Positions 13,891 through 19,902 of a stretch of 35,853 nucleotides of DNA are shown here, piece by piece. Numbering within the stretch: position 1 is the first letter of the stretch; each line of letters begins with the position of its first letter. The translations under genes were made by a program, and so were the position numbers. A model generated the notes under the pieces. That model was given only the letters and a program-made list of their open reading frames with translations. It was not told the DNA's origin and ran no database searches. Location of the stretch: assembly GCA_030430715.1 (NCBI GenBank), contig JAUIJZ010000023.1:1-35853 (forward strand), given 5' to 3'. This DNA comes from Alphaproteobacteria bacterium. GTDB lineage: Bacteria > Pseudomonadota > Alphaproteobacteria > Caulobacterales > Aquidulcibacteraceae.

Positions 13891-16467
13891 TTAAAGCGTG
13901 CGCTGCACGACTTCGACGTTGAAGCACTCGACCACGTCGCCCTTTTTGATGTCCTGGAACTGGCCGAAACTCATGCCGCATTCCTGACCCATGACGACTT
14001 CGTTCACTTCATCCTTGAAGCGCTTAAGCGTGGTGAGCACGCCCATTTCCTGGATCACGACATTGTCGCGCAGGATACGCACCTTGGCGCCCTTGCGCAC
14101 GACGCCTTCGGTCACGCGGCAGCCGCCGACTTTGCCGACCTTCGAAATCTGGAAGACTTCAAGCACTTCGGCATTGCCCAGGAATGTCTCGCGATTGATC
14201 GGCGCGAGCATGCCGGACATGACGCCCTTAATGTCGTCGATCAGATCGTAGATGATCGAGTAATAGCGAATTTCCACGCCTTCGCGTTCGGCCAGATCGC
14301 GCGCTTCCTTGGAGGCGCGGACATTGAAGCCAATCACTGAAGCGCCGGACGTCTTGGCCAGCTGCACATCGGATTCGTTGATGGCGCCAACGCCGCTATG
14401 CACGGTGCGCGCCTGCACTTCTTCAGTGCCCAGCTTATCGAGCGAGCCCGTGATCGCTTCCGCCGAACCTTGCACGTCAGCCTTGATCAGCACCGGCAAT
14501 TCGGACGCGCCCGTATCCTTGATGCGCGCCATCATCTGCTCAAGCGAGTTGCCGCGGCTGGCGCCCACGGACATGCGCTCACGGCGCTTACGCTGACGAT
14601 AATCGGCGATTTCACGCGCGCGGTTTTCGTTTTCGACCACCTGCATCGTGTCGCCCGGATCGGGCACGCCTTCGAGGCCCATGATCTCCACCGGCTCGGA
14701 CGGCCCGGCTTCGTTGAGCATCTGCCCGCGCTCGTTGGCGAGCGCGCGCACGCGGCCCCATTGGGCGCCGGCGACGACAATATCGCCGCGCTTCAGCGTG
14801 CCTTTTTGCACGAGAACGGTGGCGACGACGCCGCGACCGCGATCAAGCCGCGACTCGATCACCGTCGCCTCGGCGGCGCGCTTCGGATTCGCTTTGATAT
14901 CGAGCAATTCCGCCTGCAGCAGAATGGTCTCAACCAGCTTGTCGAGACCGGTTTTCTTCAGCGCAGAAACTTCGACGTGCAACACTTCACCGCCGAAATT
15001 CTCGGTGACGATCTCATGCTGCAGCAATTCCTGCAGCACGCGTTCCGGATTCGCGTCGGGTTTGTCGATCTTGTTGACGGCGACGATGAGCGGCACGCCC
15101 GAAGCCTTGGCGTGGCTGATCGCTTCAGCCGTTTGCGGCATGACGCCGTCATCGGCGGCGACCACAAGCACAACAACGTCCGTAACCTGGGCGCCGCGCG
15201 CGCGCATGCTGGAGAACGCGGCGTGGCCAGGCGTGTCGAGGAATGTGACCCGGCTGCCGTCCTTCAGACGCACCTGATAGGCGCCGATATGCTGCGTGAT
15301 GCCGCCCGCCTCACCGGCGGCGACATCGGTCTCGCGCAGCGCGTCGAGCAGCGATGTTTTGCCGTGGTCGACGTGGCCCATAATGGTCACGACCGGCGGA
15401 CGCGGCTTGAGATCTTCTTCGGCATCGACTTCGCCGGAGAGCCCCTCTTCAACGTCCGATTCCGCGACGCGCTTGACGATGTGGCCATATTCGGTGGCGA
15501 TCAGCTCAGCCGTATCGGCGTCGAGCACATCGGCCTGCTTCACCATCTGGCCTTGGCGCATCATGAATTTGATGATGTCGGCCACGCGAATGGCCATGCG
15601 GTTGGCGAGATCCTGAACCGTGATGGTTTCCGGAATCGTCACTTCGCGCGTGATGCGCTCGCGGTCGCCGCCGCCCATCAGCTTGGCGCGGCGTTCTTTT
15701 TCTTTCTGCTGCGCACGGCGGTACGCCGCCAGCGAGCGAACGCGATCGTCGTCCCCTTCGGTGATGCGCTCGACCATGTCGAGCGTGAGCTTGCCTTCGC
15801 GGCGCTTCGGCTCACCCTTCTTAGCGGGCTTGACCGGCGCCGTGGGCAGCGGCTTGCGCGCAGACTTGATGCGTCCGCCCAGATCGCCCAGCAGATTGGT
15901 ATTCTCTTCTTTCGCAACCGGCCCGCGCGTGGGCTGCGCGGGAGCGGGCGGCGCTTCGGCAGGCGCTTGTGCTTCAACGGCTTCCGCCTCGGCCTCGGCT
16001 TCCGCTTCACGGCGGCGCGCTTCAGCTTCCGCTTCGGCGGCGGCGAGTTCGGCCGCCTTCTTGCGCTGCGCTTCATCGAGCGCGCGGCGTTGTTCTTCTT
16101 CGGCGCGCAGACGCTGTTCGCGCGCTTCACGCTCGGCCATGGCGCGGCGCACCGCTTCTTCGCGGCGGCGCGCTTCAACATCGCTGATGTCGCCCGGACG
16201 CACGGGCGGCGGCGCGGGTTCCGGCGCGGCCGGCGCAGCCTTCGGCGCGCGCGACTTGATCGGCGGCGGCACGCCAGGACCAGGCGCGCTCGGCGCGGCG
16301 CCAGCACCGCCGCGGCCGATCGCACGCTTCTCACGCACTTCGACAGCGACTTGCTTGGTGCGCCCGTGGCTGAAGCTCTGACGCACGGTGCCCCCGCTCG
16401 TGGTGCGGGTGAGCGTCAGCGGCTTGCGGCCGGAAGCGCCTTCTTTCTGTTCGGAGCCGTCACTCAT
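13891..16467 (-). CDS. infB: Translation initiation factor IF-2
   Basis: 858 aa. GTPase that places fMet-tRNA on the 30S subunit and promotes subunit joining. N-terminus has the alphaproteobacterial [20 protein letters not shown] segment, then a Pro/Ala linker and an Arg/Glu/Ala-rich region about residues 95-180 likely to form a long helix. The G domain starts near residue 362 ([15 protein letters not shown]), with [15 protein letters not shown] and [13 protein letters not shown]. Domains II-IV follow, ending in a DGVMPQ-type translocation region and the C-terminal beta-barrel. ATG at 16467. The upstream gene ends 43 bases earlier. Confidence 0.98.
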
Positions 16468-16510: not shown

Positions 16511-17253
16511 TCACAGTTCCAAATCCTTGGGCTCGCCGCGGCTCTGGAGCTTCAAGCCAGAATCCGCGCCGCCCAATCCCCATCCGACGGAGCGCCAGGA
16601 AGCGGGCCAAGAGGCCGGAACAATGGTCCTAAATCCCGCGAGACGGCTGATTTCCGTCGCCCAGACCAGCGCCAAACGCTCTTGAAGCAGGGTAGCGTGT
16701 ATCACACGTTCCCGCCCAAGCGCCACGCCCAATTCGGTCGCGTTGAAGCAAGCTACGGCCGGCGGCGGCGCGCGCCATAACCCTATATGGAGACTCATCA
16801 GCTTTTCGCGACCCTCTTCGGCGCCATCGGCAGCCTCAATTAGCAGTCGCAATGGCTGTGCGCGGATTGCGTGTTCTACCTTCGTTGCGCCGACCGCGAG
16901 CGCGCCGGCCCGCTGCGCCATGCCCAGCAAATCAAGGCAACGCCGGGCCAGGAGCGCTTCTGTCTGCCCGGCGAGATCCACGGGCGTCTTCACCGCGTTC
17001 TTAAAGGCCCGTGCGAAACCGCCTTTTTTTACCGCTTGTTCCAGCGCCGCGCGGTCGGCGCGCGCCCACGCGCCCCGTCCCGGCAGTTTCGCCGCCACAT
17101 CGGGAACCACCATTCCATCCGGCCCCAGCGCGAAGCGGATCAGCTGCGCATCGGGCAAGCTTTCGCCGCTGGCGACGCAGCGGCGCTCTCTCAGCTTCGG
17201 TTCGGCTTTTTTTGCCGGCGCGGGCGTTGGGGTGGAGGCGACGATGGGCGCAT
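16511..17253 (-). CDS. YlxR (DUF448)-L7Ae-like RNA-binding protein, start needs a -1 frameshift or non-standard codon
   Basis: About 247 aa if the frames are joined. The YlxR domain shows RRCVASGESLPDAQLIRFA, VPDVAAKLPGRGAWARADR and the Lys/Arg-rich end; an L7Ae-like domain follows (LARRCLDLLGMAQRAGALAVG, then ATELGVALGRERVIHA). In relatives this fused form binds RNA and sits between nusA and infB, as here except for asd. The conserved RRC motif is in the frame that ends at asd's TAG, where the codons from the stop to RRC include no ATG, GTG or TTG. The only ATG (17253) is in the neighbouring frame and reaches a TGA at 17191-17193. The next in-frame TTG (17158) would delete the RRC motif. See the heptamer at 17207-17213. 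Gene call is sure; 5' structure is not. Confidence 0.85.
17164..17185 (-). promoter_or_regulatory. GC-rich hairpin inside YlxR start region
   Basis: Perfect 8-bp stem CGCCGCTG/CAGCGGCG with a 6-base loop, about 20 bases downstream of the seven-A run in the sense of the gene. This is further than the usual 5-9 bases for a -1 frameshift stimulator, so it is only suggestive. The same bases encode the conserved RRC...SG motif, so the pairing may be incidental. Confidence 0.4.
17207..17213 (-). other. A AAA AAG slippery heptamer in frame with the YlxR ATG
   Basis: Reading from the ATG at 17253, codons 14-16 are CAA AAA AAG, so the run is A AAA AAG in the phase used by -1 frameshifting in E. coli dnaX. 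The seven A are 17213-17207 on the minus strand (plus-strand seven-T run); the closing G is 17206. A -1 shift here gives a protein starting MRPSSPPPQRPRRQKK followed by AEPKLRERRC. Eight A in the true sequence would give the same protein without shifting. Confidence 0.6.
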
Positions 17254-17257
17254 CTCC

Positions 17258-19898
<2,641 letters not shown>

Positions 19899-19902
<4 letters not shown>

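Follow-up and report, generated by a model that had tools for sequence, protein, structure and literature searches.

A candidate AUC start codon for ylxR, placed behind a second asd gene, in an alphaproteobacterium and its relatives

The window analyzed here, the whole stretch of 35,853 nucleotides, contains the genes nusA (18283..19902), asd (17258..18277), ylxR and infB (13891..16467) in this order, and all of these genes and all features described below are located on the minus strand. The genes nusA and infB, the latter coding for IF2, were recognized by their Pfam matches. The gene asd, coding for an aspartate-semialdehyde dehydrogenase, was assigned by its PF01118 and PF02774 domains, its relatives and a tree as a second, actinobacterium-type copy inserted between nusA and ylxR. 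It ends with a TAG codon at 17260-17258, directly after which a frame of 248 codons stays open down to position 16511. In a profile search, this frame matched the YlxR/RnpM family, PF04296, with 76.3 and 73.5 bits against a cutoff of 26.9, and sequence and Pfam match place an Arg-Arg-Cys motif (CGC CGC TGC, 17177..17185) where the YlxR domain begins. The gene is like other members of the family in its domain and in being flanked by nusA, here together with asd, and by infB, whereas its start codon and the inserted asd set it apart. We take its product to be a small RNA-binding regulator. In B. subtilis, YlxR/RnpM has been reported to associate with RNase P RNA, and its loss alters about 400 genes (PMC11898665).

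The beginning of ylxR is unusual in that a canonical start codon is absent. An initial annotation of the sequence had stated that the YlxR frame has no ATG, GTG or TTG ahead of the Arg-Arg-Cys motif, and this was confirmed for the 24 codons between the asd TAG and the domain. These three codons make up 172 of the 2482 codons within the genes of the window, and by simple multiplication the chance that a random 24-codon stretch has none of them is about 0.18, which is not rare. Among 29 ylxR loci of the same genus, only those of the window's genome (labeled G000; other G numbers denote the compared genomes) and of G014 had no canonical codon within 40 codons of the domain. Likewise, the lone ATG of the region, at 17251..17253, was found to lie in another frame, which ends at a TGA at 17193-17191. 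A mechanically made list of open reading frames begins ylxR at TTG 17158, and a gene call from this codon would remove the conserved Arg-Arg-Cys motif. The list would fit a gene that has lost its start and is either decaying or read solely from a codon inside the gene (TTG 17158-17156, for example), its product then lacking the motif. However, the score of 76.3 bits falls inside the range of the relatives' YlxR domains (51.6 to 81.4), and both the Arg-Arg-Cys segment and the ATC layout described below are intact in 4/4 genomes that share the gene order nusA-asd-ylxR, so that such a loss seems very unlikely.

The asd gene in front of ylxR has a distribution of its own. The window's genome, which is assembled in 172 contigs, contains two asd copies that share 48 percent identity, and the one on contig C147 resembles the copies in the rest of the genus. 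The type found in the window occurs in Actinomycetota and scattered Alphaproteobacteria, with 62-72 percent identity to at least 80 named loci among the matches listed; in the retrieved flanks of 80 such loci, again among the matches listed, tblastn found no match (1e-5) to the YlxR or NusA of the window. A search of the genus's 29 other genomes, several of them incomplete, did not find this type; long matches there were at most 51 percent identical. A search of 60 genomes of the family revealed copies 79-80 percent identical to the window's in G235, G166 and G117, which belong to another genus and also have the gene order nusA-asd-ylxR. G098, which completes the four genomes of that genus, lacks this asd type and shows a GTG for ylxR. 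Of the 58 other loci first examined, 55 have nusA upstream of ylxR without asd, and no nusA was seen within the retrieved stretch in the remaining three. In most relatives of the same genus, ylxR starts with an ATG located within the 3' end of nusA; in the window's genome the second asd separates the two genes, and ylxR begins behind asd.

Comparison of the four nusA-asd-ylxR genomes found (G000, G235, G166 and G117) revealed no in-frame ATG, GTG or TTG in any of them over the 40 codons that precede the YlxR domain. In every one of the four, a G-rich stretch is followed by an ATC in the ylxR frame. The arrangement is GGGAG-8-ATC in G000, GGGAG-6-ATC in G235, GGGGG-6-ATC in G166 and GGGGAGG-5-ATC in G117, where the middle number gives the bases in between. 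The junctions read TAGGGAGATGCGCCC-ATC-GTC in G000, TGACGGGAGATCGCC-ATC-ACC in G235, TGATGGGGGATCGCC-ATC-ACC in G166 and TAGGGGAGGGCCTC-ATC-ACG in G117. In the window, the Shine-Dalgarno-like GGGAG (17254..17258) shares its first G with the last base of the asd TAG and, as had been noted initially, stands eight bases before the ATC at 17243..17245. A near-cognate codon is therefore present at Shine-Dalgarno distance in G000, G117 and G235, and in G166 it follows the weaker GGGGG, a poor Shine-Dalgarno match. From the ATC to the Cys codon, the four genomes have 23 (G000), 27 (G166), 22 (G235) and 16 (G117) codons; the sequences of this stretch differ, the frame stays open, and G+C content is highest at third codon positions in all four. 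Within the genes of the window, 9/2482 codons are an in-frame ATC preceded at 5-9 bases by a Shine-Dalgarno core, an expectation of 0.073 per 20 codons; for any of ATT, ATC, ATA or CTG with such a core, it is 0.153. The ATC is kept across four species and two genera. G166 and G235 are closely related, so the four genomes represent about three lineages, and the ATC was singled out after inspection of the junctions; for both reasons, its conservation is support rather than proof.

This comparison also bears on two explanations that had been offered for the window alone. According to the first, one A is missing through an assembly or sequence error from the run of seven A at 17213-17207, and ATG 17253 is the true, in-frame start. 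One extra A would indeed bring this ATG into the YlxR frame, but the error would account for G000 only, and G166, G235 and G117, which share its gene order, are startless as well; we consider a missing A unlikely. According to the second, ribosomes read through the asd stop codon and produce an Asd-YlxR fusion. It holds true that asd and ylxR lie in one frame with a single stop codon between them, in G000 and also in G166 and G235, and in G014 it is nusA that shares the frame of ylxR, with a TGA between them and no start. As a mechanism, readthrough did not stand up: the asd TAG of G117 is out of the ylxR frame, so it cannot be the common mechanism; the stop codon varies between TAG and TGA; and in the 55 loci with ylxR behind nusA, ylxR is usually in another frame. 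We therefore regard readthrough as highly improbable.

The genome G014 deserves separate mention. The nusA tree places it as sister to G000 (support, 96/64), the YlxR trees leave its position unresolved, and asd is absent from its ylxR locus. Its ylxR frame contains no ATG, GTG, TTG, CTG or ATN codon before the domain, which counts against an AUC start. Ahead of ylxR (L006) stands an ATC in a different frame, with six consecutive C in between, and infC (L266) likewise has an out-of-frame ATA that adjoins a C run. Since both genes show this, homopolymer errors in the G014 assembly are suggested as a plausible, if unproven, explanation.

The title proposal of the initial annotation was a programmed -1 frameshift, in which translation would start at ATG 17253 and slip at the heptamer A AAA AAG (17206..17212) into the YlxR frame. 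In dnaX, -1 frameshifting takes place at a slippery heptamer, and the locus resembles dnaX in both heptamer and phase; we confirmed that the heptamer, cut from the seven-A run, is in the phase for a -1 shift, and the ATG frame terminates soon afterwards, at TGA 17193-17191. Unlike in dnaX, neither conservation nor a stimulating structure was found here. The ATG and the A run, and with it the heptamer, are all missing from G166, G235 and G117, so this frameshift cannot be the mechanism of these genomes, which have no canonical start either. The stretch 3' of the heptamer folds like shuffled sequences (z, -0.55; 51 of 200 shuffles were as good), the GGGAG abuts the ATG with zero spacing, and, of the three frames, that of the ATG scores worst in codon usage over 17257-17204. 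The heptamer is weak evidence in itself, as AAAAAAG occurs three times in the window on both strands, and here it also encodes Lys-Lys in the YlxR frame; it is best read as Lys codons of YlxR. In view of this, little credence can be given to a frameshift, and the ATG is not supported as the start of ylxR.

Taken together, these data make translation of ylxR from the AUC codon at 17245-17243, which the initial annotation had listed among the other explanations, the best-supported mechanism and, in our judgment, a likely one. The coding region so proposed extends over 16511..17245 and would encode 244 residues. As the AUC signal is kept in some related bacteria, neither a jump in reading frame nor a sequencing error is required, and the most likely reason why ylxR lacks an ordinary start codon is that it begins at AUC. 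Ribosomes use AUC as a start codon rarely and weakly. In the proposed mechanism, the ribosome would be guided to the AUC by the GGGAG eight bases upstream, probably aided by ribosomes terminating on asd, and the initiator tRNA would pair with AUC despite a third-base mismatch, to give a protein, its first residue read as fMet, that begins MVASTPTPAPAKKAEPKLRERRC. A codon-usage test over 17257-17204 gave a weak preference for the ylxR frame (-0.59 versus -4.96 and -1.94 bits); over 17245-17213 the third frame scored best, which is partly against an AUC start. Folding of the ylxR leader revealed nothing notable. An alternative close by is initiation at the next codon, GTC (17242-17240). Streptomyces sigR has been reported to begin at GTC (PMC5472188), but there is no GTC at the equivalent place in G166, G235 or G117, and the distance from the GGGAG would be 11 bases, which makes a GTC start exceedingly improbable.

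Standard gene callers overlook AUN starts, and to our knowledge few genes with such start codons are known; the ylxR AUC would add to them. One such gene is infC, whose start codon is ATT in E. coli; in Streptomyces it is ATC (PMC5472188). We read infC starts in 30 loci (L248-L277, read for an ATA or ATT layout) of 38 genomes with a match, 20 loci being from the same genus and 10 from other families of the order. In 19 of the 20 same-genus loci, including that of G000 (L268, on contig C27), GGAG is followed after 8 bases by an in-frame ATA, the exception being G014. For five of them (G002, G004, G011, G018 and G023), an AUN start looks hard to avoid, as no canonical codon lies between the upstream stop codon and the IF3 domain. 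The remaining 14 of the 19, G000 among them, have a GTG where the IF3 domain begins; there, the ATA start is proposed from the layout and by comparison with relatives. The same place is occupied by ATA or ATT in all ten loci from other families, and in three of them an ATG also follows within a few codons. The infC gene of G000 thus appears to start with ATA, at the same Shine-Dalgarno distance as the ylxR ATC, and this organism seems to use AUN starts already.

The parallel with infC is that an AUN codon follows a Shine-Dalgarno-like sequence at the head of a translation-related gene. The two cases differ in that ylxR does not encode IF3, so any repression of ylxR by IF3 would be a putative cross-regulation. 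Precedents for this exist. The GTC start of Streptomyces sigR is reported to be repressed by IF3, and the noncanonical starts of infC and sigR are both tied to this factor (PMC5472188). Like ylxR, sigR is a regulatory gene with a near-cognate start overlooked by standard annotation (PMC5472188), although codon and protein are different, and the ylxR start is proposed from sequence comparison. In S. aureus, infC and ccpN start with AUA and cvfC1 with AUU (PMC13009471); ccpN and cvfC1 resemble ylxR in having conserved noncanonical AUN starts, but theirs were mapped by ribosome profiling. In vitro, more IF3 is reported to favor starts whose third base forms a Watson-Crick or G/U pair and to lower starts with weaker pairing there (PMC10158994). 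By analogy with infC and sigR, we infer that initiation at the ylxR ATC would give a low rate of translation and that IF3 may control ylxR by repressing it.

Startless ylxR genes were also found elsewhere in the order. Among 144 loci, ylxR has ATG in 100, GTG in 12, TTG in 11 and no canonical start in 21, the last meaning that no in-frame ATG, GTG or TTG lies up to 40 codons from the domain, whose boundary was taken from Pfam coordinates (G253, for instance, has an ATG at -48). This sample consisted of 59 loci and 84 better-scoring places (293 of 299 genomes matched), 143 in total, to which G117 was added. The 84 were taken first from members of families f1 and f5 and then from the next best, so these two families are overrepresented and 21/144 is not a rate for the order. 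As a control, infB was read in the same way, and 0 of its 44 assessable loci (of the 144) were without a canonical start, compared with 7 of 44 for ylxR in the same loci; for ylxR 21/144 versus infB 0/44, Fisher's test gave a P value of 0.005, a figure that ignores relatedness and sampling. Eleven of the 21 startless loci belong to family f5 (L023, L028, L159, L164, L167, L171, L172, L173, L174, L177 and L178), ten of them in genus g12. In these eleven, a CTG in the ylxR frame follows an AGG-rich stretch, AGGAGG itself in six, close to where nusA ends. As ylxR and nusA overlap there, the CTG could partly reflect NusA codons.

These observations allow a wider, tentative proposal, which we think possible but rather doubtful: ylxR (rnpM) may be a second recurrent target of start codon proofreading after infC. 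Starts disfavored by IF3 would then recur across the order, as AUC in the asd-ylxR genomes and as CUG in g12, and this RNase P- and DNA-binding regulator would, by its abundance, report IF3 activity and so couple the fidelity of initiation to RNA processing. If so, ylxR would be an additional IF3-sensitive gene beside nusA and infB, and if its starts are truly tuned to be weak in many of these bacteria, the choice of start codon would be a handle on how a poorly understood regulator is kept low. It is of note that no title on ylxR start codons was seen among the paper titles surveyed. On a practical level, the locus illustrates that an apparent frameshift run can be resolved by comparing gene order among relatives.

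In a sample of the class, comprising the best-scoring loci from 105 matching genomes, 6 of 68 ylxR genes had no canonical start. Several of these six, among them L284 (G365), L314 (G341), L292 (G375) and L310 (G384), had no clear near-cognate codon, and the startless pattern is for this reason not fully explained by near-cognate starts. As a separate observation, unusually long open frames of 576 and 772 codons run through ylxR in L193 (G071) and L278 (G338), respectively, and could represent either fusions or chance.
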